DNA from: Taibaiella chishuiensis | GTDB lineage: Bacteria > Bacteroidota > Bacteroidia > Chitinophagales > Chitinophagaceae | Assembly: GCF_003014535.1 (NCBI RefSeq) | Contig: NZ_PYGD01000001.1 | Span: forward strand, 124,001-188,000 | Reading direction: 5' to 3' | DNA: 64,000 nucleotides | In this document: positions 11,845 to 28,468 of the stretch, in pieces | Numbering within the stretch: the first letter of the stretch is position 1 | Layout: every line of letters starts with the position of its first letter | Made by a program: the position numbers and the translations under genes | The notes under the pieces: generated by a model | The model's input: only the letters and a program-made list of their open reading frames with translations | The model's database searches: none | Told to the model about the DNA's origin: nothing

Positions 11845-11890
11845 GGACAGCTGTTTTTATTGCTGAATGTTTGCTTTCGGGATAAGGCGA

Positions 11891-12958: not shown

Positions 12959-13002
12959 AAGCTATAGTTTATACCTGGGTCATTAGTATATAGAGGAAGA
13001 AA

Positions 13003-14361: not shown

Positions 14362-14370
14362 TGTTTAGTA
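14352..14370 (-). promoter_or_regulatory. Second TetR operator, at the tolC start
   Basis: TAATGAACAATGTTTAGTA matches the tetR operator at 16 of 19 positions and keeps the dyad TGAACA-n-TGTTTA. It overlaps the candidate tolC start codons. A TTTG lies upstream and a TATGTTTA follows directly, imitating the layout in front of tetR. Confidence 0.7.
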
Positions 14371-14393
14371 AACAGGCAAAATTTTTTTAAAAC

Positions 14394-14411
14394 GTCCCCC
14401 GCAGGGGACTG
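14394..14411 (-). terminator. Terminator between tetR and tolC
   Basis: GTCCCC / GGGGAC hairpin immediately after the tetR stop, followed on the minus strand by TTTT and an A/T run. It suggests tetR is terminated separately from the pump operon. Confidence 0.65.
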
Positions 14412-14412
14412 G

Positions 14413-15027
14413 TTATTGACGGATCATACGGAGAAACTCCTGTACTATATGTTGTACCATAGGCTCTACCGCCACCTCCTCGTTTTGTATTATTTTTAAA
14501 CGGCAGCACAGGTTCAGCGACAAAATGCCGTGGCCCATAGCCCATACCGATAAGGCAGCCGTTGGCACATCCTTATAGCGCAGCAAGCCTTTGTCCATAC
14601 AGCCCTGCACACAATTGATCAGGAAGTCGAAGGCCGACTGGCCGTTGGCCCAGTACTCGTCTTCGTCGATCACGTTCATCGGTGCTTTGTTGATGAACAT
14701 CAGCGTGTAGAGTTCGGGCTGCTCGATACCGAACCGCACATAGGTTTCGCAAAGCTGCTCCAGGCGCTTCCAGGGGCTTTTACTCACCACCCTCTGTTCG
14801 AACAGGTCCAGCAATTGTTTGAAGGCTTCGCCCTGCACATCATAGAGCAGTTCGTCCTTGTCTTTATAATACAGGTAAATAGTGGCCGGGCTGTATTCGA
14901 TCTTATCGGCGATATTACGGATCGAGGTTTTCTCATAACCTTCCTCTATAAACATAGCCAATGAAGCGTCGATAATACGCTGGCGCATCTCCTGCCGCTC
15001 TCTTTCTTTTCGCTCTGATATTCCCAT
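14413..15027 (-). CDS. TetR/AcrR-family repressor of the efflux operon
   Basis: 204 residues from the ATG at 15027. A longer frame starts at 15054, but that lies inside the promoter -7 box and operator, so it is unlikely. The N-terminal helix-turn-helix is typical (ASLAMFIEEGYEKTSIRNIA, then YSPATIYLYYKDKDELLYDV). The C-terminal ~140 residues form the variable ligand-binding part. It sits just upstream of the pump genes on the same strand. Matching palindromes lie in its own promoter and at tolC, so autoregulation and pump repression relieved by a ligand are likely. The ligand is unknown. Confidence 0.93.
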   Translation of the reverse strand: MGISERKERERQEMRQRIIDASLAMFIEEGYEKTSIRNIADKIEYSPATIYLYYKDKDELLYDVQGEAFKQLLDLFEQRVVSKSPWKRLEQLCETYVRFGIEQPELYTLMFINKAPMNVIDEDEYWANGQSAFDFLINCVQGCMDKGLLRYKDVPTAALSVWAMGHGILSLNLCCRLKIIQNEEVAVEPMVQHIVQEFLRMIRQ

Positions 15028-15038
15028 AGTATACACTG

Positions 15039-15071
15039 CAAATTTACTGAACACTGTTCAGTATTTCCAAA
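15039..15071 (-). promoter_or_regulatory. tetR promoter
   Basis: On the minus strand, TTTG (15071-15068) and TAAATTTG (15046-15039) are 21 bases apart, a near-perfect Bacteroidota promoter. The TetR palindrome fills the spacer. Confidence 0.75.
15045..15063 (-). promoter_or_regulatory. TetR operator in the tetR promoter
   Basis: TACTGAACACTGTTCAGTA is a perfect 19-bp palindrome around one central base. It lies between the -33 and -7 boxes and shares the first TA of the -7 box, so bound repressor would block RNA polymerase. Confidence 0.85.
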
Positions 15072-15161: not shown

Positions 15162-17270
15162 TTAACGGGCACCTGCCTGTTGTGCCGCAGCTGCGTATTT
15201 CTGTGCGGTAGCCATATCGCCCTGTTGCTGGTAAATGTAGGCCAGGGCCATATAAGCCTGTGGCGCAATATTGCCATCGAGTGCTAATGCTTTATTGAGG
15301 TTATCGATCGCCATCGGGTAGTTTTTCAACCCGGCATAGGCTTGTCCCAGGCCCAGCCAGCCTTCGCCCATCAGCGGATAGTCCTGGGTCATTTTTCCAA
15401 ATACCTGCAGCGCCTTATTGAAGTCGCCGATTTGCATATATACACCACCCGCAGTACTTGCATTTTCGAGATCGAGCGACGAGATCGCGTAAGCCTTACC
15501 GATAGCCTCCGCTGCGCCGGCCTTGTTGCCGGTCTGGAAATAAGTAATCGCCAGGTTGCGCCAGTTTTCCACGTCTTTGGGATATTGTTGAACCGCCTTT
15601 ACAAGCAGGGGCAGGGCTACCGTATCCTGGCCCGCCTTCAGGGCCTCGAAGGCCTTCAGGCCTTTCCGTTCGGGATCATTCTGCAGCACGGTGGTCAACG
15701 GCACGCCATCGGCCGACTCGATATGGATCGGGTTGTCGCCGGGGAAATAGCCATTCTGCAACTGTTCTTTATCCAGGAAGCGGCTCATAAATACGCCATA
15801 GTCCCAATTACTCTGGTTACGCTGGTAATACCGTACATAAACGAATTTAAAGGGTACCGGCGATATCTTCTGGTATTCGATAAAAAGCGCGGGCGCATTG
15901 GAAGCAATGATTATAGAATCGCCGGGCTTCCTGCCTGCCGCATCTTTTTTCAGCTTGTTTTCTACCAGCCAGTTCAGGGCGCCTTTCATAGAATTGAAGT
16001 AGTAATCGGTTTCGTACTCGCCGTACGCGCCCTTAATACCACCGGCCAGTTCGTTGAAGTAAACATATTCGTTGGGATAATTGGCAAACATAAACCGGGC
16101 GGGCAATGCAACCAGTACCAGCGTAACACCGGCAACGGCGTATTGTATCGCCTTTTTACCCGCAAACAGCTGCAGCAGGTAATCGTAAAACAGCGCTGCA
16201 AGTATAACGAACAAAGGCAGTACGAACAGGATATGACGCATACCGTCGTATACCACCGATTTCTTATAAATGATATATACTATGGGGAACAGCGCTGCGA
16301 AAGCCAGTAACAGGTAATACGTATGCTTGCTTGTTTTGGTCCACTTGAACAACAGGACCAGCGCCCCGATAAAGCCAATGAGAATATACAGCGGCATACC
16401 GATGCTGATCCAGCGGGGCAGGTATCCCGGGGGAATCTCCGTAGTCCGGATCTTCATACCCTCGTACAGTGTGCTTACATTAAGCGGATACGCACTCATT
16501 ACCTTAACGGCATCTATAGGGTGACTGATCACGTCTTCGAGGGCATAAGGCCACCAGATACAGGCGCCGAGCCAGCCGATAATACCGGCTACTACCAGAT
16601 GTTTGATAGACCCGGTAAATACCTTCGTGCCAAACTTTTTGGTACGCCATAGTTCTATAAGCCAGAAAAGGCCCAGATAGGCGATAACCAATATCCCACC
16701 CACACGCACACTGATCGCCAGGGCAATGGAAAGACCGAGTAATATAGTTGTTTTCCAGGAAGGGGTTTCCAGGTTTTTCAGCCATTTAACGATGCAGAGC
16801 AAGGCCGCCAGGTAACCCGTAGCGAAAGGAATGTCTTTGGGGTTATTGAACATTTCGCCGAAAATACGCGGCGTAAATACCATAAAGATCACCGTAATGA
16901 TAGCGGCACGCCAACCGGCGAACTCCCTGGCCAGCAAACCTGCAAAAACAATACCCGCAAAACCGAAAATCATATTCCAGTAGTGGCGCAACAGGAACTC
17001 ATCTTTAGGATGAAAGATATCGATCAGCATGGCGGCAAACCCATCGAAGAAACCACCGTACATCGCCTGGGTATTTTCGAGATAGGTACCACTTACCGCA
17101 GTTTTATCGGCACCGAAGGTCTTAAGGTAGTTCCATACGGAGGTACCGTATTTCCACTGGGTTACTTCATCGCCCGTAATCCCGTATTGCGGTACCATAA
17201 ACAACATGACCACAAAAATGAGGGCGAGCAGGCCCCAGAAAATTTTTGGCAGATTTTTTTGATCCATCAT
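15162..17270 (-). CDS. GT39-type membrane glycosyltransferase with TPR C-terminus
   Basis: 702 residues. The first ~430 residues carry about ten transmembrane helices, with the early periplasmic GDEVTQWKYG segment matching the acidic motif of PMT/ArnT-like (GT39/GT83) transferases that use polyprenyl-phosphate sugars. A soluble region follows. The last ~170 residues hold tetratricopeptide repeats (YPKDVENWRNLAITYFQTGN, EGWLGLGQAYAGLKNYPMAI, PQAYMALAYIYQQQGDMATA), likely for protein contacts in the periplasm. It is last in the operon after a GT2 enzyme that could make its lipid-linked sugar donor. Acceptor unknown. Confidence 0.85.
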   Translation of the reverse strand: MMDQKNLPKIFWGLLALIFVVMLFMVPQYGITGDEVTQWKYGTSVWNYLKTFGADKTAVSGTYLENTQAMYGGFFDGFAAMLIDIFHPKDEFLLRHYWNMIFGFAGIVFAGLLAREFAGWRAAIITVIFMVFTPRIFGEMFNNPKDIPFATGYLAALLCIVKWLKNLETPSWKTTILLGLSIALAISVRVGGILVIAYLGLFWLIELWRTKKFGTKVFTGSIKHLVVAGIIGWLGACIWWPYALEDVISHPIDAVKVMSAYPLNVSTLYEGMKIRTTEIPPGYLPRWISIGMPLYILIGFIGALVLLFKWTKTSKHTYYLLLAFAALFPIVYIIYKKSVVYDGMRHILFVLPLFVILAALFYDYLLQLFAGKKAIQYAVAGVTLVLVALPARFMFANYPNEYVYFNELAGGIKGAYGEYETDYYFNSMKGALNWLVENKLKKDAAGRKPGDSIIIASNAPALFIEYQKISPVPFKFVYVRYYQRNQSNWDYGVFMSRFLDKEQLQNGYFPGDNPIHIESADGVPLTTVLQNDPERKGLKAFEALKAGQDTVALPLLVKAVQQYPKDVENWRNLAITYFQTGNKAGAAEAIGKAYAISSLDLENASTAGGVYMQIGDFNKALQVFGKMTQDYPLMGEGWLGLGQAYAGLKNYPMAIDNLNKALALDGNIAPQAYMALAYIYQQQGDMATAQKYAAAAQQAGAR

Positions 17271-17291: not shown

Positions 17292-17951
17292 TTAGACCTT
17301 GGCCATATACAACCAGTCGCCGTCTATCTTACGGCACTCATAGCTGGGTAACTGGAACAGGCTGGATACGGAGTATTCGTTAGGAAAGAAATGAATATGC
17401 AGGTCGAGGGTATAAAAGTAATAACGCTGGCAGGGGGTTGCGATGATGATCTGTTTCCTGGCTACCCTTTTCATCTCTTCGATGGCTTTGGGCAGGTTTT
17501 TAAGATGCTCGATCGTATGCTGGCAGGTAACGATATCGAAAGACTTATCGGGAAAGGGCAGGGCTTCAACATTGCCCCGGCAATAGGTGGCGCGCTTCAT
17601 AGGTACATCATCGAAAAAGTCGACACCGGTAAGCTCCAGCCCCGGGAAACGGTCGGCAACCAGGTCGAGCCAGTAACCACGGCCACAGCCGACATCGAGC
17701 ATATTCGTCGCACCCGGATCCAGGTTTTCCAGGATATGATCGATTGTAGCCTGGTTCGTATCCGTAGGCCGGTCTTTAGACAGGTTGGAGGTGGTCCTGT
17801 AAATATCAGCGAACTCTTCGTCCGTCATGGTGCTGACATTTTTCTTGAAGTTCATCACTTTATCCAGATTACTATTCTTGAACCATATCTTAAAAAAAGG
17901 ATACATAAACCAACGGCTATCCCTGATAACCGGCGGGATGCATTCATCCAT
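17292..17951 (-). CDS. Class I SAM-dependent methyltransferase
   Basis: 219 residues from the ATG at 17951; a start 12 codons upstream is possible. The SAM-binding motif I is MLDVGCGRGYW, followed by GVDFFDD, GNVEALPFPDKSFDIVTCQHTIEHL (motifs II-III shown in two parts) and RVARKQIIIATPC, a Methyltransf_11 layout. The ~85 residues ahead of motif I look helical. No membrane segment. It lies between the GT2 and GT39 genes in the glycan operon, so methylation of a sugar or lipid-linked intermediate is the likeliest role. Substrate is not predictable from sequence. Confidence 0.88.
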   Translation of the reverse strand: MDECIPPVIRDSRWFMYPFFKIWFKNSNLDKVMNFKKNVSTMTDEEFADIYRTTSNLSKDRPTDTNQATIDHILENLDPGATNMLDVGCGRGYWLDLVADRFPGLELTGVDFFDDVPMKRATYCRGNVEALPFPDKSFDIVTCQHTIEHLKNLPKAIEEMKRVARKQIIIATPCQRYYFYTLDLHIHFFPNEYSVSSLFQLPSYECRKIDGDWLYMAKV

Positions 17952-18008
17952 TATGAAGCGTATCTTATTGGTTGTACTCCTTTTCATTTGTTGTATAAGA
18001 ACAGGAAC

Positions 18009-18740
18009 CTATTGCGATGCAGCGGATCCTCTTTTGTTTTTTCGTTTAAATTTATACATCACGCCCATCAGTATCCAGATATCTTTAAAGGCTTTGATCA
18101 CCGTTTTGAAAGATGATCCCTTACTGACCCCATAGATACGCGGCAGGTATTTTGATTGTACTTCTTTAACCCCTACACCGAGATAAAGCAATTTCGAGCA
18201 AATCTCGGTTTCCACCAGGGAGCTTTTGAGCTGGAGGTCGAGCTGTTTCAGATGATGCTGCTTGATGATCTTCGACCAGTTCACATCTTTTATCTTAACA
18301 CCCAGCAGGTATTCGTTCATTTTTTTATTGACCCAGCTCAGCCAGTTCCGGTAAAAACTATATACCGTATTTTCCTTGCGGTAAAAAGATACAAAGCTAT
18401 CGGGGGCTACATAAGCAAAGGGGAGCAGTTCGTCCAGGTCGAACTGGCCGTCGCCCGCGGTGAGAAAAACATTTTCGTAACGCACATGCTCATAAAAGGA
18501 ATTAATACCCATACCAATCCCTTTATTGGTAGCATGGATCACAGGCACCACCTGTTTATATTGTGCTGCCAGTTCGCGTATTGCCTCTGTGGATCCGTCC
18601 TTACTGCCATCATCAACGATAATCAACTCATACTCCGAAGCAATAAGCTCCAGGTTGCGCAAGGCCTTCTCGGCAACATCCCTGATTGTTTTTACTTCGT
18701 TGTAACACAATAGTCCAACGGACCAGCTTTGCTTTTGCAT
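18009..18740 (-). CDS. Family 2 glycosyltransferase (DPM1-like)
   Basis: 243 residues. GT-A fold motifs are visible: LLCYNEVKTI near the N-terminus, LIIVDDGSKDGSTEAI (nucleotide binding), and the metal-binding TAGDGQFDLDELLPF. There is no clear C-terminal membrane pair, so it resembles the short polyprenyl-phosphate hexosyltransferases of the DPM1 type. Its start codon directly abuts the DegT stop (18741), suggesting translational coupling. It probably builds the lipid-linked sugar used by the GT39 enzyme at the end of the operon. Confidence 0.9.
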   Translation of the reverse strand: MQKQSWSVGLLCYNEVKTIRDVAEKALRNLELIASEYELIIVDDGSKDGSTEAIRELAAQYKQVVPVIHATNKGIGMGINSFYEHVRYENVFLTAGDGQFDLDELLPFAYVAPDSFVSFYRKENTVYSFYRNWLSWVNKKMNEYLLGVKIKDVNWSKIIKQHHLKQLDLQLKSSLVETEICSKLLYLGVGVKEVQSKYLPRIYGVSKGSSFKTVIKAFKDIWILMGVMYKFKRKNKRGSAASQ

Positions 18741-19841
18741 TTAATTATAGGCGTTAATGGCATCAATTACCTGTTGCACGGCATCGTCTTTCAGCTCTGC
18801 ATAGATGGGCAGCGACACGCAATGCTCCGCCAGGTATTCGCTGTTAGGAAAATCGCCTTGTTTATAACCCAGGTGCGCATAGGCTTTCTGCAGGTGGCAG
18901 GGTACCGGGTAGTGTAGTCCGGGGTAAATATTTTTGCTGTTCATGTACTGCATAAAATGCTCGCGGTCGGCTACCGTAACCACGAAAAGGTGGTAGGACG
19001 AATCGGCCCATTCGGGCATCGCCTGGAAGGTGATTGCCTTATTGGTAATTTCGGTTTTGTAGCGGGCGGCGATCTCTTTCCTGCGGTTGTTCCAGCCGTC
19101 AATGTATTTGAGCTTCACTTCGAGTATCGCGCCTTCAATACCGCCCATGCGCCAGTTATAGCCGATCTCGTCGTGGTAGTAACGTACGGTGCTGCCGTGG
19201 TTACGCAGGCTGCACATGCGTTTGTAATAATTTTCGTCGTTGGTAATTACACCACCGCCTTCGCCGAAGGTGCCCAGGTTCTTACCCGGGTAGAAGCTGA
19301 AGCAACCCATGTGCCCGGTATTGCCTACATGCCGGCCTTTATAGTAGGCCCCATGCGCCTGCGCACAGTCTTCGACCAGGTACAGGTTATGTTTATCGGC
19401 AATGGCTTTTACGGCGTCGATATCGAAGGTTTGCCCGTAGAGGTGTACGCCGGCAATGGCTTTGGTTTTCGGGGTAATTTTTGCTTCGATCAGGGCAGGA
19501 TCTATTTCCCAGGTATCGCTGGTACAATCGACAAAAACCGGGGTAGCACCGGCATGCGACACGCCCCATGCGGTAGCGATAAAGGTATTGGCCGGAACGA
19601 TCACCTCGTCGCCGGGACCGATATTGAGGGTTTGGAAGGCCAGCTGCAATGCAATGGTACCGTTACTTATACCGACAGCGTATTTTGCGCCGGTCCACGC
19701 GGCAAATTTCTCTTCGAAGGAAGCGACAAAAGGCCCACCGGAAAAAGCAGTCTGATCCATTACCTTTTCCATAGCCTGCCAGGCTTCTTCTTTGATCTGC
19801 AGGTACTGTTCTTTAAGGTCTAAAAAATTAATGCGTTGCAT
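18741..19841 (-). CDS. DegT/DnrJ/EryC1/StrS sugar aminotransferase
   Basis: 366 residues, standard for the family. It transfers an amino group to a keto nucleotide sugar using PLP. The PLP lysine is Lys187 in SFYPGKNLGTFGEGG, and the pocket motifs EDCAQAHGA and NTFIATAWG are intact. With the Gfo/Idh dehydrogenase and GNAT of the adjacent operon it could form a 3-keto, 3-amino, N-acyl sugar route, as in WbpB/WbpE-type pathways. First gene of its unit: a -7-like TATTTTTG lies on the minus strand at 19898-19891, about 50 bases before the ATG, and a terminator separates it from the dehydrogenase gene. Confidence 0.94.
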   Translation of the reverse strand: MQRINFLDLKEQYLQIKEEAWQAMEKVMDQTAFSGGPFVASFEEKFAAWTGAKYAVGISNGTIALQLAFQTLNIGPGDEVIVPANTFIATAWGVSHAGATPVFVDCTSDTWEIDPALIEAKITPKTKAIAGVHLYGQTFDIDAVKAIADKHNLYLVEDCAQAHGAYYKGRHVGNTGHMGCFSFYPGKNLGTFGEGGGVITNDENYYKRMCSLRNHGSTVRYYHDEIGYNWRMGGIEGAILEVKLKYIDGWNNRRKEIAARYKTEITNKAITFQAMPEWADSSYHLFVVTVADREHFMQYMNSKNIYPGLHYPVPCHLQKAYAHLGYKQGDFPNSEYLAEHCVSLPIYAELKDDAVQQVIDAINAYN

Positions 19842-19983: not shown

Positions 19984-20013
19984 AAAGATCCGCAGCGACA
20001 GCCACGGATCTTT
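19984..20013 (-). terminator. Terminator after the Gfo/Idh gene
   Basis: Perfect AAAGATCCG / CGGATCTTT stem, followed by T on the minus strand, 43 bases after the dehydrogenase stop. It ends the ACP-to-dehydrogenase transcription unit. Confidence 0.85.
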
Positions 20014-20055
20014 ACCTTTTCTTTAATTTATAATATTACCCCGGATAGCCGGTTG

Positions 20056-21066
20056 CTATGCGTTCACCTTTACTTCCCTGCCCTTGTCTTTGATACTCTC
20101 CTGCGCGGCTTCCAGCAGGGCCACCACATCGCGCCCCAGCTGCCAGTTCGATAAAGGTTCTGACCCGGTGCGGACGGCCTGTATAAAGTCGGTAGCCATG
20201 CCGAACAAAGCTTCCTTCTGTGCCAGCTTAGGCACGAATATATCGCCGGTACGGTAGTCGATCAGCAGTTTCCGCTTTTCTTCATCGTTGGTTACATTAT
20301 AACCGGTGTCGTATACCTTTACTTTTTCGGAGGGTTCCACATCGTCGAAAAGCACCATCTTTTTACTCCCGCCGATCAGGATGGTCCGTAGCTTTACGGG
20401 CGAGGTCCAGGAGCAGTTAAAATGCGCGATCTTGGGCACATTATAATTAACCGTAAGGTAAGCGATATTCTCGATACCGTTTGGCGTATGGGATACGCCG
20501 GTAGCGCAAACACTTACCGGGCGCTCTTTTACGAGGTGGAACAGGATGGAGATATCGTGCGGGGCCAGATCCCAGAGCACATTCACGTCCTGTTGAAAAA
20601 GCCCGAGGTTGATCCGTGTGGAATCGAAGTATTCGATCTCGCCGATCTCTTTGGAATCGATCAGCTCTTTGATCTTCTGTACCGCCCCGGTATACAGGAA
20701 GGTATGGTCGACCATCAGCACAAGGCCTTTTTCCGAAGCCAGCGCACCCAGCTCATCTGCTTCTGCGACCGAAGGCGTCATCGGCTTTTCGAGCAGTACA
20801 TGCTTGCCGGCCTGTAGTGCCTTCAGGGCCAGCGGGTAGTGCGTCTGCACCGGCGTTGCGATGATTACGGCATCCACTCCGGCATCCGAAAAGATATCTT
20901 CTACATCCGTGGTAACACCGATACCCGGGTATTGCTTACTGATCAGGTCCAGCCGGGGCTGCCGCAGGTCCGAAACCCACTTCACCTTACAGTTGTCCAC
21001 TGCATTAAAATTGCGTACAAGGTTAGGGCCCCAGTAGCCATAACCGATTATTGCGACATTGGTCAT
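20056..21066 (-). CDS. Gfo/Idh/MocA-family sugar dehydrogenase
   Basis: 336 residues. The Rossmann motif GYGYWG (residues 8-13) binds NAD(P), and the family signature LEKPMTPSVAEA (Lys94 of EKP) is present. The second domain has the WDLAPHDISILFHL block, close to WbpB/WlbA-like enzymes that oxidise C3 of nucleotide sugars. Last gene of its unit, 29 bases after the GNAT gene. Beside an acetyltransferase and upstream of a DegT aminotransferase, oxidation before amination is the natural proposal; the exact sugar is unknown. Confidence 0.9.
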   Translation of the reverse strand: MTNVAIIGYGYWGPNLVRNFNAVDNCKVKWVSDLRQPRLDLISKQYPGIGVTTDVEDIFSDAGVDAVIIATPVQTHYPLALKALQAGKHVLLEKPMTPSVAEADELGALASEKGLVLMVDHTFLYTGAVQKIKELIDSKEIGEIEYFDSTRINLGLFQQDVNVLWDLAPHDISILFHLVKERPVSVCATGVSHTPNGIENIAYLTVNYNVPKIAHFNCSWTSPVKLRTILIGGSKKMVLFDDVEPSEKVKVYDTGYNVTNDEEKRKLLIDYRTGDIFVPKLAQKEALFGMATDFIQAVRTGSEPLSNWQLGRDVVALLEAAQESIKDKGREVKVNA

Positions 21067-21095
21067 TGCATAATTGGATTGAAACGATTTATAAA

Positions 21096-21647
21096 TCAGG
21101 CTTCGGCCGGCAAAGATAGGTTATGAAACCCTTTGAATTTCTGCAACATAGCCGGGAACTGTTCTTTATAAAACTCGTAAAATATATCAAGATCCGATTC
21201 CCTGTAAATATGTGCGCCGTAAGAAAGATGGAATTTAACCACATTCCTGTTTTCGATACGCACATCGGACAAGGTCTTTTTCAATCCCAGGATATGAAAT
21301 GCGATATAATAAACCAGCATAGCGCTTTCCATGGCGGTATACATCGGCGCATCGGGATGTATGATCCAGCGCCCCCAGTTAAAGGTACCCGCCTGCTCGT
21401 CGATCTGGTAAATGGCTACAGCGCCCAGCCTGTTGCCCGCCAGGTCTTTGATGGTAAAATTATAATCGCCCGGCTTATCGTATACCATACGAATCCAGTT
21501 CTCCTGGTCCTCTACTTTCGGGCTCGTCGGATTGAGATGCTTGTTCAGCGCAGGGTCCATTCTCAGTCCGAGAATAAAGGCAGCATCTTCTGCTACAGAA
21601 GAGCATAATTGTATGCGTTTGCCGGTTACGGGTTCTTTTAAATGCAT
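21096..21647 (-). CDS. GNAT-family N-acetyltransferase
   Basis: 183 residues with a RimJ/RimL- or PseH-like layout: RIQLCSSVAEDAAFILGLR at the start, a GAVAIYQID strand, then LSDVRIENRNVVKFHLSYGA, where the N..V..F..LG(A) pattern contacts acetyl-CoA. It probably N-acylates an amino sugar or amino lipid made by this locus. It starts 12 bases after the TylF-like gene. A tight acyl-CoA loop (Q/RxxGxG/A) is weaker than usual, so the donor might be an acyl-ACP from the same operon; this is speculation. Confidence 0.8.
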   Translation of the reverse strand: MHLKEPVTGKRIQLCSSVAEDAAFILGLRMDPALNKHLNPTSPKVEDQENWIRMVYDKPGDYNFTIKDLAGNRLGAVAIYQIDEQAGTFNWGRWIIHPDAPMYTAMESAMLVYYIAFHILGLKKTLSDVRIENRNVVKFHLSYGAHIYRESDLDIFYEFYKEQFPAMLQKFKGFHNLSLPAEA

Positions 21648-21659
21648 TGTAAAAATATT

Positions 21660-22424
21660 TTACCAGATAATATAAGATACATAGTTGCCATTGGGCGAAC
21701 GTACGAGATTCCGTTGTGCAATATCCAGCTCCTCCATGAAGGCCTGGGTCTCACCGGGAAACTGGGCCATACATAATTCGTCGAAGGCTACTACGGCGCC
21801 TTTCACCAGGTACTTTTTCAGCAGTTGCAGACACTCTTTGGTAGGTTTATAAATGTCCATATCGAAATATGCAAAGGCGACAAGCGTTTCTTTCTGTCTT
21901 TCGAGGTATTGCTTCAATTCTGCGCCTGCATCACCTTTGATGATCTCAAATTTTTTGTGGTGATTATTGGGGTTGATGCTTTCATGGTACTGCATGATGC
22001 GCTCAAGATACTGATCGTAGCTTTGATCGCCCAGGTCCTGCGTTTTGTAGCTGCCCTCATGAATAAGATCGTGATTACCGTCTTCTTTCGTCGTGCCTTC
22101 GAAACCTCCGAAGGTATCGAAGCCAATAATTTTCCGGGAAAGATTATAGGGCTCATACATGGCGCGCAAAGAGGCTATAAGCGCGAGGTTTTGTCCGTAA
22201 CGGCAGCCGAATTCCATAACTACACCATGCGTATTGATAATTTTTCGGTACAGCTCATCGAGAAACAGGATACGGGAAAGTTGCCAACGGTTGATGAACA
22301 GCCCCTGGTGCGCAAACAGTTCCCCTTTCGGGATCGGGCAATGATCATAGAGCTCGATTAATTCTTGCTTTGCCGCGATTGCAGCCGGCGAAGAAAAGGT
22401 GCCGGTTAGATTGGGATGGGTCAT
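21660..22424 (-). CDS. TylF-like class I methyltransferase
   Basis: 254 residues from the ATG at 22424; the longer upstream frame crosses the LuxC stop and has no protein character. Features: VVMEFGCRYGQNLALIA (SAM-binding motif I), IIGFDTFGGFEGT, and the metal-site block AYFDMDIYKPTKECLQLL, all typical of macrocin O-methyltransferase/TylF relatives often found with sugar biosynthesis genes. It lies 55 bases after the LuxC-like gene and 12 before the GNAT. O-methylation of a sugar or hydroxyacyl group is likely. Confidence 0.84.
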   Translation of the reverse strand: MTHPNLTGTFSSPAAIAAKQELIELYDHCPIPKGELFAHQGLFINRWQLSRILFLDELYRKIINTHGVVMEFGCRYGQNLALIASLRAMYEPYNLSRKIIGFDTFGGFEGTTKEDGNHDLIHEGSYKTQDLGDQSYDQYLERIMQYHESINPNNHHKKFEIIKGDAGAELKQYLERQKETLVAFAYFDMDIYKPTKECLQLLKKYLVKGAVVAFDELCMAQFPGETQAFMEELDIAQRNLVRSPNGNYVSYIIW

Positions 22425-22479
22425 ATTATTGCGGTTTATTCTATAAAATCTTTTCTCCCTTCTTTTTCGTAAAGCCGGT

Positions 22480-23724
22480 TTATCTTTCCAGGTATATCTT
22501 CCGGGATAATGCTTCGAGCAGGTTATAACCGTCCCAGATATAGTTAAAATCAAGTGCATGCCCCAGGGGAACAATGCGGTCTATACCTTCTCCCCGGCTC
22601 AATGACACAAGCGCATCCAGTGCTGTATCATCCAGGCCGAAATAAGATACTGTTTGCAGCTTGTTGTCCACAAAAGGCAACAGCCCATCCACCGAGTCGA
22701 GCCGGCGGGTATAAAAGTAACCGCCCCCGCAGGAATGTGGCAAAGCTGCTTCCGTTGCGTCCTGCGTGCGCAATGCAGCAAAAGTCACATAATTATCGCC
22801 CCATTTATGATCAATGGTCCTGTCCAGGGTATCGTCGACCATGCGGTTCAGCTTGAGCGAAGCGATGGAAGCAATATCCGTATCGTAGCGGCCGGCTATA
22901 GCACCTGACAGCAGGCTGACCATTTCTGTTACACAGGTTTCGTAAGCGGCTTCGTCGCCCAGCAGGAATACCGATTGCGGCGACGAACAGCCTTTCTGAT
23001 CGAAGGTATAGGCATCGTTAAAAAACAGGCGGGCAAAGTTTTCCCGGCCTTTTGCGTCGAGCTCATTAAAGGCATTGCAATCGATACACAACAAGGAGAC
23101 CCTGTCGGCAAACACGATATCACGGGTGCGCGGTGCAGGTTTAAAATCGCGGAATGCAGCAATCGTACTGTCGCCACCCCATATTACACGGGCATTGCAG
23201 CGCCCCGAGATGGCGGTGCTTATTGCATCGTTGTGCGGGTAAGTTATGATATGGATATAATCCCGGAACAGTGCGAATTCTGCCAGTCCCAGGAGTTCAT
23301 TTAATGTATCGAACAGGAACGTGATCTGCGGCGCCTCCATACGCGCCGATATACGCAACAGGTTTTTATTCCCCATCAGTACCGATACCGCCAGGCTATA
23401 GATAAACATGGTATCTACATTGGCCGGGCAAACATGGAATACACGCCCCAGCGGGCTTAGTGAAAAATGTGCCTGTCCGAAAAGATGACTGTTTTCCTTT
23501 TGTATCTGCAGCAGGTTGGCCCTCCTGATCCAAAACGCCAAAGCTGCGATTTCCGGCAGCCGGTTTACGCTCCGGTCTGCAAGCAGCTTTTTAGAGAAAG
23601 TATCAAAGAAAGCAAGCGTCCGTTCGTCGAAGGGCGCCAAGCCGTATACCGTAGTGGTATCAAAAAATGGCAATTCGTTCAGATCGGTATCCCGGCGTTC
23701 GGGTGTCAGTAGCTGGACATTCAT
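22480..23724 (-). CDS. LuxC-like acyl-CoA/acyl-protein reductase
   Basis: 414 residues. It matches the LuxC family, aldehyde-dehydrogenase-fold enzymes that reduce an acyl thioester to an aldehyde with NADPH. The catalytic cysteine is Cys246 in FDQKGCSSPQ, and the nucleotide-site blocks RVFHVCPANVDT and VIWGGDSTI are intact. It starts 2 bases after the LuxE-like stop, so the two are surely coupled, as in lux operons where LuxE hands an acyl group to LuxC. No luxAB luciferase is present, so light emission is not implied. Confidence 0.9.
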   Translation of the reverse strand: MNVQLLTPERRDTDLNELPFFDTTTVYGLAPFDERTLAFFDTFSKKLLADRSVNRLPEIAALAFWIRRANLLQIQKENSHLFGQAHFSLSPLGRVFHVCPANVDTMFIYSLAVSVLMGNKNLLRISARMEAPQITFLFDTLNELLGLAEFALFRDYIHIITYPHNDAISTAISGRCNARVIWGGDSTIAAFRDFKPAPRTRDIVFADRVSLLCIDCNAFNELDAKGRENFARLFFNDAYTFDQKGCSSPQSVFLLGDEAAYETCVTEMVSLLSGAIAGRYDTDIASIASLKLNRMVDDTLDRTIDHKWGDNYVTFAALRTQDATEAALPHSCGGGYFYTRRLDSVDGLLPFVDNKLQTVSYFGLDDTALDALVSLSRGEGIDRIVPLGHALDFNYIWDGYNLLEALSRKIYLER

Positions 23725-23726
23725 GA

Positions 23727-24797
23727 TTATCGGGATTTAAAAGTGTCGCTGCAACCCCGCAATTCCGCTTTTTTAGCCCTGCCGGTCACCTTAAAATATT
23801 TTCCTTTCCAGCCATTGCTGGCATCGTCTTCTCCCATAATCACCCCGATATCTTCGGTAAGCAGGGAGTGCCCGGGATAACTTTGCGGCAATACACTGAT
23901 AACCTGTACGAGGCCCGGCACCCCATGTGGCTGTACCGAAAAGTCGGCAGGATTACGGATAATAACATCCGCAAAATTAGGACAGTGCAGGTAGCCGTCT
24001 GAGTTTTCTAAAAATACCGAGCCGATCTGTTCGATCATTCCATAAAAGTTGTAGATCTGGTCCAGGCCAAACCGGTCTTTCAGCGAGGCACGGAATACGG
24101 AGTTATCTACCGCCATATCCGTCATTTTTTTCCAGCCGCCGCTATGGATCAGTATAGCCTTACTCAGGTCGTAGCGCTTGCCAGTTTTAGCATTAAACAG
24201 GTAGAGCCATACCATAAAAGTAAAGCCGAAAATAAAAAAGGGTTGCCCGTCGTAGCGTTCGAGAAAGGACGCCAGTACCTGTTCGTCGAATTCGAAATTA
24301 TCGTCAAGCACATAAGTATGGTCCTTACCAAACACCGACAAGCCCAGGATACCCGCACCCCGTGCGGAATAGGATTGTTTATTGGCGAATACGGCCTTGG
24401 AGTCGATGATCAGCATAGGCAGACGCGCCTTGCCCAGTACATGGGTGATGATCTTGGATAAGGCCAGCGACTGCAGCTGTGCCGTTTCTTTATTCAGGAA
24501 AATACGGCTTACTGCATCGCCCGTAGTACCGCTTGATGTCAGCACTTTGAACACCTCGCTATCCGGGATGCTCTTCAGTTCATGATTTTTAAAGGCAGAT
24601 ACCGGCAGGAAAGGCAGATCGGCAAGCGTTGCAGGCTGCCGTATGCTACCCTCAAACACGGTATTGTAAATATCGCGATAGGCCGCACAGGATCCCAGGT
24701 GCCACTGATGCCGTTCCAGCAGAAGCGGCAGCAGCTCCCGGTTTTTTTCATCCCGGGTGAGCGAATATTGTATGGTATTTAAAAGATCGTTCAACAT
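23727..24797 (-). CDS. LuxE-like acyl-protein synthetase
   Basis: 356 residues from the ATG at 24797, which overlaps the stop of the AMP-ligase gene by one base (TAATG). LuxE enzymes adenylate a fatty acid and hold it on a cysteine for LuxC. Visible motifs: LTSSGTTGDAVSRIFLN (ATP/AMP binding), NFYGMIEQIGSVFLE, and the C-terminal ELRGCSD with Cys349, placed like the acyl-carrying cysteine near the end of Vibrio LuxE. Strict coupling to both neighbours argues for one enzyme line with the ACP. The acid activated is unknown. Confidence 0.88.
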   Translation of the reverse strand: MLNDLLNTIQYSLTRDEKNRELLPLLLERHQWHLGSCAAYRDIYNTVFEGSIRQPATLADLPFLPVSAFKNHELKSIPDSEVFKVLTSSGTTGDAVSRIFLNKETAQLQSLALSKIITHVLGKARLPMLIIDSKAVFANKQSYSARGAGILGLSVFGKDHTYVLDDNFEFDEQVLASFLERYDGQPFFIFGFTFMVWLYLFNAKTGKRYDLSKAILIHSGGWKKMTDMAVDNSVFRASLKDRFGLDQIYNFYGMIEQIGSVFLENSDGYLHCPNFADVIIRNPADFSVQPHGVPGLVQVISVLPQSYPGHSLLTEDIGVIMGEDDASNGWKGKYFKVTGRAKKAELRGCSDTFKSR

Positions 24798-26167
24798 TAT
24801 CGTTCCGCGTACATTTTTTGTATCCTGGTATAATCTGTTTTGCCATTGGCCGTAAGCGGCAGCTCCGGCACGGTCCACACTTTCACAACCGAAGGATGCA
24901 ATTTGAGCGTCGTCGTTATCAATGCTGCCACAGTCTGCTCATCTACTTCCGGCCGGTCGGTTACCAGCAGCATCAACTTATCTTCTATGCCCACAGCTTT
25001 AACCGGTACATCCAGGTTTATCGCAAGCAACTGTTCCACTTCATCAAGATTGATACGGCTGCCAAACAGTTTGACAAACCGGTTGATCCTCCCGGTGATG
25101 TAATAGAAGCCGTCTTCATCTTTGCGCGCCAGGTCGCCGGTACGCAACCAGGCTGGCTGGCTGTAATCCGACAGGTCATTAATACCGGTTACATAACCAC
25201 CAAACACATTCGGCCCGGCGTACAACAGTTCACCATTATCCGGATCGATATCGAAAGTACCTCCCGGAATAGGGACCCCTATAGCAGAGGGATGGCGCTC
25301 CAGTTCGGCAGGGGGAAGATAGGCCATACGGGCCGTCGCTTCCGTTTGCCCGTACATCACATAAAATGCATAGCGCTTTTCTGAGGCATAGGCAGCGAAC
25401 TTATGAACAAGCGCTTCGCGCAAACGGCCGCCGGCCTGGGTAAAATATTTTAAAGAAGGGTAGTCTTTTTTCGTGAAGCCGATACGGTCCAGCATTTCGT
25501 AAACGAAAGGTACGCCCGCAATGGAAGTATATCCCAGTTGCTCCATACCCGACCAGAATTCGCGGTTGAGGATATCGGTATGACAGCAAACCAGGGTACC
25601 GCCGAAAATGGCGTTGCTGGTCAGTACGGATAAACCGTAGGAGTAGTAGACCGGTAGGTTAAGGGGGGTTACATCGGTACCGCAGACCGGCAGGTAGCCG
25701 GCAATAGACTTTGCATTTTCCAGCAAGTTGTTTTCCGAAAGCTTTACAAACTTAGGAGAGCCCGTGGTGCCGGAAGTACTCAGCAATAGCTTTACATCCG
25801 GGTGTATATTCACGTCCTTAAGCGTATCGCGCGTAAAAAGGGGTTGATCCGCCGCGTACTGGTACCCGGTTATATCGGTTCTGGCAGGATCGTAGATATA
25901 AGCAGGTTCGTAACGCCGCTCCAGCTCGTCCTTGAAATGTGGCGCCAGATCGGGGCTCAGCAGGGCACAGACATGCGGGCTTTTCAAAAAGGACAACAAA
26001 ATAGTAATAGCAGGGAGTGTATTATCCAGGTAGAGCAAGGCCAGCCGGCGGGTATTACCCGGTAAGGATAACAGGGAGAGGTCTTCCAACCGGAATACTT
26101 TACCGGGATCCGCTTCGTTAATGAAGCGCAGCTGTTGGTTTGCCTGTATTTCGTTGAAGAGTTTCAT
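24797..26167 (-). CDS. AMP-forming acyl ligase (acyl-ACP/CoA synthetase type)
   Basis: 456 residues, shorter than FadD and close to stand-alone adenylation enzymes that load carrier proteins. Motifs: STSGTTGSPKFVKLS (residues 130-144), YVMYGQTEATARM, LRTGDLARKDEDGFYYITGR, and the catalytic lysine Lys443 in TANGKTDYTRI. It begins 4 bases after the SDR stop and ends in a one-base overlap with luxE. With the ACP two genes upstream, its likely job is loading a free acid onto that ACP. No condensation domain is attached. Confidence 0.87.
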   Translation of the reverse strand: MKLFNEIQANQQLRFINEADPGKVFRLEDLSLLSLPGNTRRLALLYLDNTLPAITILLSFLKSPHVCALLSPDLAPHFKDELERRYEPAYIYDPARTDITGYQYAADQPLFTRDTLKDVNIHPDVKLLLSTSGTTGSPKFVKLSENNLLENAKSIAGYLPVCGTDVTPLNLPVYYSYGLSVLTSNAIFGGTLVCCHTDILNREFWSGMEQLGYTSIAGVPFVYEMLDRIGFTKKDYPSLKYFTQAGGRLREALVHKFAAYASEKRYAFYVMYGQTEATARMAYLPPAELERHPSAIGVPIPGGTFDIDPDNGELLYAGPNVFGGYVTGINDLSDYSQPAWLRTGDLARKDEDGFYYITGRINRFVKLFGSRINLDEVEQLLAINLDVPVKAVGIEDKLMLLVTDRPEVDEQTVAALITTTLKLHPSVVKVWTVPELPLTANGKTDYTRIQKMYAER

Positions 26168-26171
26168 AATC

Positions 26172-26918
26172 TTAGAGCATCATACCTCCATCCACACCAA
26201 TAACCTGTCCTGTTACATAACCCGAAAGCTCCGAGGCCAGGAACAGCGCAACCCGTGCCACATCTTCCGGTTTCCCGGCGCGTTTCATACCGATACTGGC
26301 CAGGGTCTTTTCCCTCGCCGGCGCGGGAAGGCCGGCAACCAGCTCCGTTTCTATAAAACCCGGAGCAATAGCATTAACCCTTATGTTTAATGGGGCCAGT
26401 TCTTTGCTGAGCGACCGGGTAAACCCGATCACCCCGCTTTTTGCGGCAGCATAGGCCGATTGCCCGGCGCTGCCGTTGGTGCCCACGATAGAGCTCAGGT
26501 TGATAACCGATCCGCCTCTCCGGCGGATCAGCGATTTCACTGCGGCCTGTGTTACATGGAACGTGCCATACAGGTTCACTTCTACGTTCTGCCTCATAAC
26601 CTCCGGCTTCAGGGTAAGCAGGGAGGCATCTATCATCTGGCCGGCGTTATTGACCACGATATCAATATCCATCTTTGCACCAGTAATCGTCGCGAAAACA
26701 GCTTTTACCTGTTCCGGATCAGACACATCGGCTGTATAAACGGTAACGGAAACGGGATAAACCTCTTCCAGTTTTCTTTTTTGCTGTTCCAACTGGTCGC
26801 TGTTACGTGCCAGCAGGATCAGGCCGGCGCCTTCGGCGGCAAACAATGTGGCGATAGCTTCGCCTATGCCCCTCGTAGAGCCGGTAATAAGAGCCGTTTT
26901 ACCTTTTAGCAGCGACAT
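26172..26918 (-). CDS. Short-chain dehydrogenase, FabG-like
   Basis: 248 residues with every classical SDR element: TGSTRGIG (residues 12-19, NADP binding), NNAG (90-93), catalytic Ser143, Tyr156 and Lys160, and the closing GQVIGVDGGMML. It is most like 3-oxoacyl-ACP reductase. The start overlaps the ACP stop by one base (TGATG), which fits acting on acyl groups carried by that ACP. In this setting it could make a 3-hydroxyacyl unit or reduce the aldehyde product of LuxC to an alcohol; the two cannot be told apart here. Confidence 0.9.
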   Translation of the reverse strand: MSLLKGKTALITGSTRGIGEAIATLFAAEGAGLILLARNSDQLEQQKRKLEEVYPVSVTVYTADVSDPEQVKAVFATITGAKMDIDIVVNNAGQMIDASLLTLKPEVMRQNVEVNLYGTFHVTQAAVKSLIRRRGGSVINLSSIVGTNGSAGQSAYAAAKSGVIGFTRSLSKELAPLNIRVNAIAPGFIETELVAGLPAPAREKTLASIGMKRAGKPEDVARVALFLASELSGYVTGQVIGVDGGMML

Positions 26919-27157
26919 CAGAATACGATGTTATACTTGGTCAGGATCTCTTTCGCCTTTCCTACAGAGCTCAGATCAATCACATCGTCGGTATCGATAG
27001 CAACACCAAAGGTATCCTCCAGCTGGCTGATCAGGATCATATGCGTTATAGAATCCCACTCGGGAATAGCCTGGTAAGCCAAATCGTCTTGAATGGTTTC
27101 CTGGGGAACGGCTAAAGCTTCTGAAAATGCATGGATCAGTTTTTCGGTATTGCTCAT
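26918..27157 (-). CDS. Acyl carrier protein
   Basis: 79 residues. The phosphopantetheine serine is Ser36 in the motif EWDSITHM, and the helices around it (IHAFSEALAVPQETIQDDL; LISQLEDTFGVAIDTDDVID) give the usual four-helix, acidic profile. The WDS form rather than ADSLD separates it from the housekeeping fatty-acid ACP and points to a dedicated pathway. First gene of the acyl-glycan unit, with its own promoter 43 bases upstream. No phosphopantetheinyl transferase is in the window. Confidence 0.93.
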   Translation of the reverse strand: MSNTEKLIHAFSEALAVPQETIQDDLAYQAIPEWDSITHMILISQLEDTFGVAIDTDDVIDLSSVGKAKEILTKYNIVF

Positions 27158-27199
27158 AAAAGTTATTAACTACCTTTTTTAATTATCGGTAAAGGGTTA

Positions 27200-27231
27200 C
27201 AAAAGTAGTTATAATTTGGCACAAAGAGAAA
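27200..27231 (-). promoter_or_regulatory. Promoter of the ACP-led operon
   Basis: Minus-strand TTTC (27231-27228) and TACTTTTG (27207-27200) with a 20-base spacer fit the Bacteroidota consensus. The leader to the ACP start is about 35 bases. Confidence 0.6.
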
Positions 27232-27679: not shown

Positions 27680-28468
27680 ATGGAAACGCTTAACCTACTC
27701 CTCGTTGACGACGAACAGGAAGCCTGTATGAATTTAAAGCATATCCTGCTGGATTATATAGATAAGGATATCAATATTCTCGATGTTGCACACAGCACGA
27801 AAGATGCCGAGGAAAAAATTGCACGGTTAAAGCCCAATGCGGTGTTTCTTGACATTGCCATGCCCAACGAGAACGCTTTCCAGTTCCTGGAAAGGATTAG
27901 CCCTATCAATTTTGAGATCGTATTTGTAACGGCCTACGACGAGTATGCAGTAAGAGCCTTCAAACTGAATGCCGTAGACTACGTACTCAAACCGATTCAT
28001 ATCGAAGACCTGCGCAATGCGGTGGAAAAGCTGAAAGAAAAAGTATTCTACAGGAATATAGTGAACAATGTACCGGTATACAATGAACTATCGCTGCAGA
28101 TCGGCCAGAAGAAGAAGCAATCGCAGATCATCCTGAAGGATAACCACATCATGGAAGCCGTGCCTTTTAAACACATCCATTATATTAAGGCTATGGGCAG
28201 CTATTCGATGATCTACTATTTCAAAAACCGGGAAGAAAAAACCTTCCTGATGTCACGACCTATATCCGAATACGAGGACCTGTTACCGAAGGACTCTTTC
28301 TTCCGGATACACCGTTCGTACCTGCTTAATTGCAATTGCATCCGGAAGATCGTTAAGGAAGAAATCCCTTCCGTGATCCTGCAGGACAATACCCATCTCC
28401 CGATCGGGCGGCGCCGTTTTTCCGCCCTGATGTCTTTTCTCGAAAACTTTAACCTGTCTGATGCCTAG
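27680..28468 (+). CDS. LytTR-family response regulator
   Basis: 262 residues. The N-terminal receiver domain (residues ~4-120) has the acidic pair Asp10-Asp11, phospho-acceptor Asp58 in VFLDIAMP and the Lys of LKPIH. The C-terminal LytTR DNA-binding domain (~150-255) shows HIHYIKAMGSYSMIY, FFRIHRSYLLNCNCIRKI and LPIGRRRFSAL. Its last 8 bases overlap the start of the sensor kinase gene, so the two form a two-component pair. Targets in this family are usually nearby or global envelope genes; none is shown here. Confidence 0.94.
   Translation: METLNLLLVDDEQEACMNLKHILLDYIDKDINILDVAHSTKDAEEKIARLKPNAVFLDIAMPNENAFQFLERISPINFEIVFVTAYDEYAVRAFKLNAVDYVLKPIHIEDLRNAVEKLKEKVFYRNIVNNVPVYNELSLQIGQKKKQSQIILKDNHIMEAVPFKHIHYIKAMGSYSMIYYFKNREEKTFLMSRPISEYEDLLPKDSFFRIHRSYLLNCNCIRKIVKEEIPSVILQDNTHLPIGRRRFSALMSFLENFNLSDA

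Follow-up and report, generated by a model that had tools for sequence, protein, structure and literature searches.

A portable five-enzyme cassette that makes a short hydroxyacyl group on an acyl carrier protein (ACP) and feeds it to a sugar N-acyltransferase is proposed, with a probability of roughly 0.6, for a 64,000-nucleotide stretch of Taibaiella chishuiensis DNA (the window; contig NZ_PYGD01000001.1, equivalent to C1:124001-188000 of the source genome G000, which comprises 5.84 Mb in 24 contigs). The cassette lies on the minus strand and encodes, in order, an ACP, a FabG-like short-chain dehydrogenase/reductase (SDR), an AMP-forming acid ligase (AMP-ligase), and LuxE-like and LuxC-like proteins. 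The proposal was built on gene families, catalytic residues, gene order, an association with aminotransferase and acyltransferase genes, and differences between sister species at the same locus; every reaction, the order of the steps, the acid and the acceptor were inferred.

The five genes open an eight-gene unit that continues into a CalS11-like methyltransferase, a GNAT and a Gfo/Idh oxidoreductase. The junctions from ACP to Gfo/Idh measure -1, 4, -1, 2, 55, 12 and 29 bases, where the 55-base gap depends on the candidate ATG at 22424 that was taken as the methyltransferase start. The ACP and SDR genes overlap by one base (TGATG), as do those of the AMP-ligase and LuxE (TAATG; the LuxE reading frame as listed, to 24878, begins too early, and 24797 was taken as its start). 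An earlier note on this DNA, made by a model from the letters and a list of open reading frames (ORFs), had given the same four cassette junctions, and the coordinates bear them out; it had also described the genes as fused into an operon, of which the adjacency holds and a literal fusion does not, the five cassette genes being separate ORFs. A second unit, found as that note had it, follows after a 214-base gap and contains a DegT-type aminotransferase, a GT2, a methyltransferase and a GT39-TPR protein. Pfam backs every family named in both units, including each of the five cassette calls that the note had made. No ketosynthase or luciferase family was found among the 20 window proteins scanned with Pfam, as the note had stated, and the same scan found no LuxD-like, luxA or luxB family among the window neighbours.

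Catalytic motifs are present in all five cassette proteins. The ACP serine is in place (DSI motif, residue 36) within an 83-codon frame, and the protein is one of 20 PP-binding matches in the genome; the idea of a dedicated carrier protein, already put forward in the earlier note, was upheld. Elsewhere in the genome, PP-binding domains are numerous in frames on contigs C8 and C11 that span 1290 to 6180 codons and probably belong to nonribosomal peptide synthetase/polyketide synthase clusters. The SDR carries a GSTRGIG loop at 13 and YxxxK at 156, and scored 261 of 297.75 bits against TIGR01830, below the cut-off. The AMP-ligase has a TSGTTG loop and an NGK motif, and its partner is inferred to be the ACP. 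Its best Protein Data Bank (PDB) match is an oxalate-CoA ligase, and malonyl-CoA synthetases were matched too; prediction of a substrate was abandoned, given that these nearest solved structures (oxalate and malonyl ligases) are too distant for specificity. LuxE has an SSGTTG loop and a Cys349 that is invariant in all five aligned sequences and aligns with the LuxE cysteine of the solved LuxC-LuxE complex (PDB 7xc6); Cys246 of LuxC is likewise invariant in five of five and aligns with the LuxC cysteine of that complex. By these conserved catalytic residues, LuxE and LuxC look like an intact carboxylate-reducing pair.

The neighbouring proteins point to amino-sugar chemistry, and the amino-sugar destination named in the earlier note was judged a good guess. 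The first methyltransferase is barely above its Pfam cut-off (26.9 vs 26.3 bits), and its best PDB match is CalS11, a TDP-rhamnose 3'-O-methyltransferase (3tos/4gf5, E 5.2e-48). The CalS11 match says more about this protein than the TylF label in the note, whose order of methyltransferase, GNAT and Gfo/Idh genes was otherwise correct. The GNAT is homologous to FdhC (PDB 5kta, E 2.8e-20, residues 20-166 aligned) and is proposed to be a sugar N-hydroxyacyltransferase. The best NCBIfam model for the Gfo/Idh protein is UDP-GlcNAc 3-dehydrogenase (133.9 of 450 bits, below cut-off), and none of its PDB matches is named as a sugar 3-dehydrogenase. The DegT protein is closest in the PDB to QdtB (3frk, E 4.3e-99), with PseC as its best NCBIfam model, below cut-off. 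Weak NCBIfam matches of the GT2, all below cut-off, include an undecaprenyl-phosphate aminoarabinose transferase.

In order to examine the conservation of the cassette, 84,980 species genomes were scanned with a five-sequence LuxE alignment, which returned at least 579 relatives. The best 80 of these at least 579 were examined together with the window and five plasmid loci, giving 86 loci that are ranked by LuxE similarity and of which 30 are from Amycolatopsis and none from Aeromonas. The full collinear set of ACP, SDR, AMP-ligase, LuxE and LuxC was found in 68 of the 86 loci, spread over eight phyla: 52 in Actinomycetota, seven in Bacteroidota (window included), two in Gammaproteobacteria and one each in Alphaproteobacteria, Betaproteobacteria, Deinococcota, Acidobacteriota, Campylobacterota, Ignavibacteriota and Bacillota. 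The earlier note had proposed a search for the same gene order in other genomes, and that order was thus recovered across phyla, so that the refuting condition named in the note, an order found in no other genome, does not apply; because the same families recur in the same order in 68 of 86 loci, the arrangement is more than chance. Five of the 18 loci without a full set are on contigs shorter than 9 kb that start inside the set (L014, L018, L021, L026 and L033), and the remainder are partial, interrupted or rearranged. One Salmonella plasmid locus (L007) with only a distant LuxE and LuxC was kept among the 86 and scored as a miss. On a LuxE tree of 64 rows, the 62 cassette rows were separated from two outgroups with full support.

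Acyltransferase genes frequently accompany the cassette. In 53 of 86 loci, a GNAT or hexapeptide/LpxA-like acyltransferase is encoded on the cassette strand no more than 400 bases from the block; counted by lineage, the figure is 21 of 49 at that distance, and 32 of 49 when both strands are taken out to 3 kb. As a control, an acyltransferase was near 52 of 86 cassettes vs 62 of 904 other genes of the same loci, a contrast that serves as a guide only, the loci being interdependent. The GNAT label switches at least four times on the LuxE tree, by well-supported branches. A DegT-type gene is present in 67 of 86 loci, and the same-strand Gfo/Idh-DegT pair of the window recurs in 39 of 86, the other 38 being actinomycetes (ORF starts are rough). 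In 35 loci, all from actinomycetes, the gene directly before the ACP belongs to one cluster, a tested member of which is most like an acyl-ACP--UDP-GlcNAc acyltransferase (174 of 226 bits), although actinomycetes are not known to make lipid A. Pseudaminic-type genes exceeded curated cut-offs in some loci (PseI in L035, PseB in L078, PseH in L008 and L046). Of the 86 loci, 11 have a NeuB-family match no further than 10 kb away, and 23 have a PseB-like match, a count that takes in other epimerases. Since some loci carry PseB, PseH or PseI, the cassette seems to serve different amino sugars. Neither PseB nor PseI was found near the window cassette, and two NeuB-family genes lie elsewhere in the genome.

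Under the proposed pathway, LuxE would activate one carboxyl of a small acid with ATP and hold the acyl group on Cys349, and LuxC would take it onto Cys246 and reduce it to the aldehyde. The SDR would then convert the aldehyde to an alcohol, and the AMP-ligase would activate the remaining carboxyl of the resulting hydroxy acid and load it on the dedicated ACP. The favourite acid is a C4 acid, e.g. malate giving 2,4-dihydroxybutanoate. The Gfo/Idh and QdtB-like DegT proteins would make a 3-amino sugar nucleotide, the FdhC-like GNAT would transfer the hydroxyacyl group to its amine, and the CalS11-like enzyme would O-methylate the amino sugar or its acyl group. Delivery of the sugar to a surface acceptor, with polyprenyl phosphate as the probable carrier, would fall to the GT2 and GT39-TPR proteins. 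For neighbours that comprise an FdhC-like GNAT, a QdtB-like DegT and a CalS11-like methyltransferase, the simplest product is a 3-amino sugar that is both N-acylated and O-methylated.

The earlier note had placed the steps in another order, in which the ACP is first charged with an acid, the SDR acts on the bound acid, and LuxE and LuxC then reduce it to an aldehyde that decorates an amino sugar or surface lipid. In the form considered here, the free aldehyde would be joined to an amino sugar (by an imine or by reductive amination) or to a carbon skeleton. This order was considered unlikely, although some points favour it. LuxC in glowing bacteria ends in an aldehyde, and a FabG-like SDR suits ACP-bound chemistry. 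Split transketolase genes, whose product could lengthen an aldehyde by two carbons, lie roughly 6 kb or less from LuxE-LuxC in Rhizobium L006, Kurthia L072 and Duganella L080; such genes occur in just three of 86 loci, and were also noted at L108:8999-9829 with L099:2838-3740. An aldehyde product leaves unexplained both the frequent nearby acyltransferase and a second acid-activating enzyme besides LuxE. The presence of two acid activators makes more sense when reduction is the first step and ACP loading the last, and the acyltransferase near the cassette in 53 of 86 loci suggests that what is delivered is acyl-ACP and not an aldehyde.

Several observations weigh against the proposed hydroxyacyl-ACP supply. 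The top models for the SDR are 3-oxoacyl-ACP reductases, which would suit ACP-bound beta-keto groups and not an aldehyde. The acyltransferase control contrast is inflated, because its seeds were cassette neighbours and because 30 of 86 loci are from Amycolatopsis. No acyltransferase of the two kinds sought was found in 16 of 86 loci, only six of which are on contigs shorter than 9 kb, and complete cassettes with long context and no acyltransferase were found (L004, L017, L077, L078 and L085; of these, L004, L078 and L085 form one actinomycete clade with 21-25 kb of context). In the window itself, the GNAT is not adjacent to the cassette and is the second gene downstream (836 bases), and its close homologues are rare beside cassettes, with four weak matches (best E 1.6e-6). 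A further point, that seven formulas fall within 0.02 Da of a 376.14-Da Aeromonas sugar, is taken up with that system below.

Variation among the cassettes was also recorded. Loci L039 and L077 have cassettes beside other ligase-like genes (by eye and by cluster), with no acyltransferase found, and share one LuxE clade with L021 and L103; L077 additionally holds a second, distant ACP/AMP-ligase/LuxE set. Locus L006 has a cassette variant with a gene cluster that includes an annotated FabZ and is also present with L038 and L080, and L038 has two extra SDR matches. The FabZ-bearing cluster and the extra SDRs of L038 may represent further ACP-bound steps.

The closest published logic to the cassette is that of the Vibrio cholerae O1 tetronate pathway, in which a 2,4-dihydroxybutanoyl group is attached and which includes a LuxE/LuxC protein, RfbN (PMC9201469, PMC12208996). 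The tetronate group comprises VC0248-VC0252, and a strain with wbeL (rfbL) deleted lacks O1 antigen altogether (PMC3441752). A LuxE domain has been noted in RfbN (PMC4772473), and RfbL is said to activate 2,4-dihydroxybutanoate, putatively joining it to coenzyme A or to the carrier protein RfbK (PMC12208996). Compared by published gene names, the tetronate genes share with the cassette a carrier protein, an AMP-type ligase, an acyl protein synthase and an acyl-CoA reductase, and include a dehydrogenase and an acetyltransferase-type gene that serve an amino-sugar acyl group. In the window, the ACP, AMP-ligase, LuxE and LuxC genes (by Pfam) stand together as in the RfbK-O set (V. cholerae names from PMC9201469 and PMC12208996). 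The order of reduction first and loading last agrees with these published genes. Differences were observed as well: one gene, that of RfbN, is named for both LuxE-type and LuxC-type activities, whereas the window has two ORFs with a 2-base gap; the tetronate dehydrogenase is of the iron type, whereas the window has an SDR and no iron-dependent alcohol dehydrogenase family among the operon proteins (Pfam); and the tetronate sugar is perosamine (a 4-amino sugar), whereas a 3-amino sugar is proposed for the window. On present evidence, the window cassette would work like the tetronate pathway, and membership in that pathway is not claimed. The earlier note had called the product not one it could name; close logic has in fact been published for the tetronate, and the same gene set for flagellin islands.

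N-acylated 3-amino sugars of the FdhC/QdhC type (Fuc3N and Qui3N bearing 3-hydroxybutanoyl) provide a second comparison, sharing with the window a QdtB-like DegT and an FdhC-homologous GNAT. Unlike these loci, the window has no ketoisomerase family among the neighbours scanned and has a Gfo/Idh dehydrogenase instead. The comparison raises the alternative of two unrelated supply lines, in which the AMP-ligase, ACP and SDR would provide 3-hydroxybutanoyl for the GNAT while LuxE and LuxC would provide an aldehyde for another step, such as a GT39 acceptor or a cell-wall lipid. In its favour, fdhC is described as the 3-hydroxybutanoyl transferase gene for Fuc3N (PMC4869667), and a FabG-like SDR could form a 3-hydroxyl from acetoacetate; the Hafnia loci of the same paper bear 3-hydroxybutanoyl sugars, and its main text mentions neither luxE nor luxC, which argues against it. 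The five genes stay together across eight phyla in differing contexts, which suggests one pathway. Two separate lines were regarded as slightly less likely than the aldehyde order.

The same five families are known from flagellin glycosylation islands. The Aeromonas group II polar-flagellin island reads orf1-orf2-orf3-luxE-luxC and, compared by description, agrees with the cassette in its families and in their published order (PMC7874193); the five families of the window lie on one strand in this Aeromonas-type acp-fabG-ligase-luxE-luxC order. The Aeromonas cassette lies beside pseudaminic acid genes and flagellin glycosyltransferases (PMC7874193), whereas that of the window lies beside Gfo/DegT, GNAT and GT39 genes with no pseudaminic synthase in the operon. 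The flagellin islands of Enterobacteriaceae contain Acp, LuxE, LuxC1-4, CaiC and FabG, each in 71-80 strains, which by description is the same family set in a flagellar context, and there it was read as glycan lipoylation (PMC4875605). Aeromonas piscicola AH-3, whose island group has the five genes, carries on its flagellin a 376.14-Da derivative of pseudaminic acid; this is the only sugar left after deletion of fgi-1, a deletion that leaves the five genes in place (PMC7874193). Mono-acetyl pseudaminic acid plus C4H6O3 gives 376.148, the mass of a dihydroxybutanoyl or O-methylglyceroyl amide; with seven candidate formulas within 0.02 Da, the fit is consistent with a C4H6O3 acyl group and is not proof. 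A separate 102-Da moiety in the AH-3 paper has the same nominal mass as C4H6O3 (PMC7874193).

The Aeromonas authors propose a fatty-acid or "liposugar" role (PMC7874193), which the 376-Da sugar does not show. The corresponding alternative, in which the cassette would supply a liposugar or lipid with a long-chain fatty aldehyde or fatty acyl group, counts against the present proposal in that the Aeromonas and Enterobacteriaceae authors both read the set as fatty-acid synthesis (PMC7874193, PMC4875605) and the family names agree with them, yet it was judged the least probable of the alternatives: against the curated bioluminescence models LuxE scores 66 of 550 bits and LuxC 29.3 of 750, far too low in both cases, the operon proteins scanned contain neither a ketosynthase nor a LuxD-like family, and the AH-3 linking sugar at 376 Da is too light for pseudaminic acid plus a long acyl chain (PMC7874193). 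The bioluminescence LuxC-LuxE complex (PDB 7xc6) shares its families and both cysteines with the window, and differs in these low scores and in that the window adds an ACP, an SDR and a ligase, with no luxD, luxA or luxB family among the scanned neighbours.

Other published systems were compared and set aside. The Shewanella sfm operon was rejected as a cassette, its genes being NeuB, a thiamine pyrophosphate enzyme, an oxoacyl reductase, a methyltransferase and an ATP-grasp protein (PMC3765264). Psychrobacter marincola was rejected as a 4-hydroxybutanoyl case, its pseudaminic acid bearing lactic acid, and 4-hydroxybutanoyl appears in that paper only in the title of an Idiomarina reference (PMC7281560). 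The main text of a V. cholerae O159/O170 paper does not mention luxE or luxC (PMC6434791), and an A. caviae paper searched for glycan masses gave none (PMC9290775).

Between the sensor-regulator genes and the GT39 gene, gene content differs from species to species within the genus, and a GT39 homologue is present in all four genomes, that of the window included. The cassette is in one of the four. In sister genome G530, a Gfo gene (66% identical to that of the window) is followed by a hexapeptide acyltransferase, DegT (62%) and a PglD-like gene, and further on by two more aminotransferases interspersed with a GT2 and an epimerase, and then GT39 (63%). This genome has no cassette, and no match to the window GNAT was found in the 36 kb read. 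The two species thus have Gfo and DegT in common, and the window adds the cassette, methyltransferase and GNAT before Gfo; it has no hexapeptide gene between Gfo and DegT, and the acyltransferases of the two species are not in the same position. Genome G101 has split transketolase genes, an epimerase-GT2 ORF, methyltransferases and then a 31% identical GT39, with no cassette, and G001 has a GT2 and a 34% GT39. At this locus, the sensor gene stands in two or three tandem copies in each of the three sister species.

More widely, LuxC was found in one of 147 genomes of the family, namely that of the window itself (E up to 1e-10), and a LuxE match of 1e-40 or better in five of 395 genomes of the phylum, four with the whole set and one with a distant LuxE and LuxC only. 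The nearest LuxE among the matches examined is 70% identical and comes from a Chitinophaga-labelled metagenome bin. This patchy distribution suggests that the cassette has spread horizontally, although base composition, considered as a sign of recent foreign origin, has no clear GC step. A LuxC scan of viral contigs yielded no relative, while plasmids searched with LuxC or LuxE yielded annotated relatives. Matches at about 23-28% identity (Salmonella, Priestia, Pantoea, Streptomyces and others) look like other LuxE systems and, apart from Salmonella L007, were set aside. On the Salmonella plasmid CP053580, L007:6629-11506 holds a LuxE-like gene, an AMP-binding ORF that also matches LuxC and a PaaK-like gene, with a peptidase-domain ABC transporter further off, and is a different LuxE/LuxC system.

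Table 1. Features of the two gene units in the window

Feature	Position	Strand	Support or remark
TANNTTTG box	27200..27207	-	~43 bases before ACP start
ACP, 79 amino acids	26918..27157	-	PF00550 29.7 bits
FabG-like SDR	26172..26918	-	adh_short_C2 220 bits
AMP-forming acid ligase	24797..26167	-	PF00501 104.8 bits
LuxE-like acyl-protein synthetase	23727..24797	-	PF04443 163.5 bits
LuxC-like acyl-protein thioester reductase	22480..23724	-	PF05893 91.4 bits
CalS11-like nucleotide-sugar O-methyltransferase (putative)	21660..22424	-	Methyltransf_24; CalS11 PDB match
FdhC-like GNAT	21096..21647	-	Acetyltransf_3; FdhC PDB match
Gfo/Idh/MocA oxidoreductase, proposed sugar 3-dehydrogenase	20056..21066	-	PF01408 98.4 bits
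Terminator-like hairpin after Gfo/Idh gene	19984..20013	-	13 pairs, loop 4, T-rich tail
DegT/DnrJ/EryC1/StrS aminotransferase, QdtB-like	18741..19841	-	PF01041 405.9 bits
GT2, proposed polyprenyl-phosphate sugar transferase	18009..18740	-	PF00535 56.4 bits
Second S-adenosylmethionine methyltransferase	17292..17987	-	PF08241 (Methyltransf_11) 65.3 bits
GT39/PMT-like membrane glycosyltransferase, C-terminal TPR repeats	15162..17270	-	PF02366 29.3 bits + TPR

The hairpin just past the end of the Gfo/Idh gene has the longest stem among the terminator-like sites of its kind, of which there are seven in the 64-kb stretch vs 9.4 in shuffles, and it coincides with the left edge of the region singled out in the earlier note. 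Upstream of the ACP, TANNTTTG is a promoter-like box; boxes of this type are not above chance in the window (48 vs 41.4). The adjoining regions hold AcrB-type pump, HlyD, TolC-type and TetR genes beside the GT39 gene (8788-15054), and a response regulator with a large sensor kinase (27680-31397; identified by eye) that are transcribed away from the operon.

A broader reading is offered tentatively, at somewhat less than even odds. The cassette would be a general, horizontally spread acyl-tailoring set that, in no fewer than eight phyla, reduces a small acid and supplies a C4-type hydroxyacyl-ACP for amino sugars; the "liposugar" label given to these genes in flagellin islands would be a misreading, with the 376-Da pseudaminic acid of Aeromonas AH-3 as the product of the set; and in the window the set would help to make an O-methylated 3-N-(hydroxyacyl) amino sugar, so far undescribed, in place of the plain N-acyl sugar of a sister species. 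The five-gene order is already known from Aeromonas (PMC7874193) and the gene set from Enterobacteriaceae flagellin islands (PMC4875605), and no publication naming the cassette product was found in the open-licence literature searched. New, as far as that literature was searched, are the occurrence in so many phyla, the combination with a Gfo-DegT-GNAT-GT39 module in a Bacteroidota genome, the sister-species contrast and a small-hydroxyacyl-supply reading rather than a lipid one.

If the proposal is true, a widespread gene set now named after fatty-acid or bioluminescence genes would gain a testable function, and flagellin, capsule and actinomycete glycan loci would be tied to one small-acid chemistry. 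Bacteria with unusual surface hydroxyacyl amino sugars would become predictable, and five enzymes would be available for making hydroxyacyl donors.

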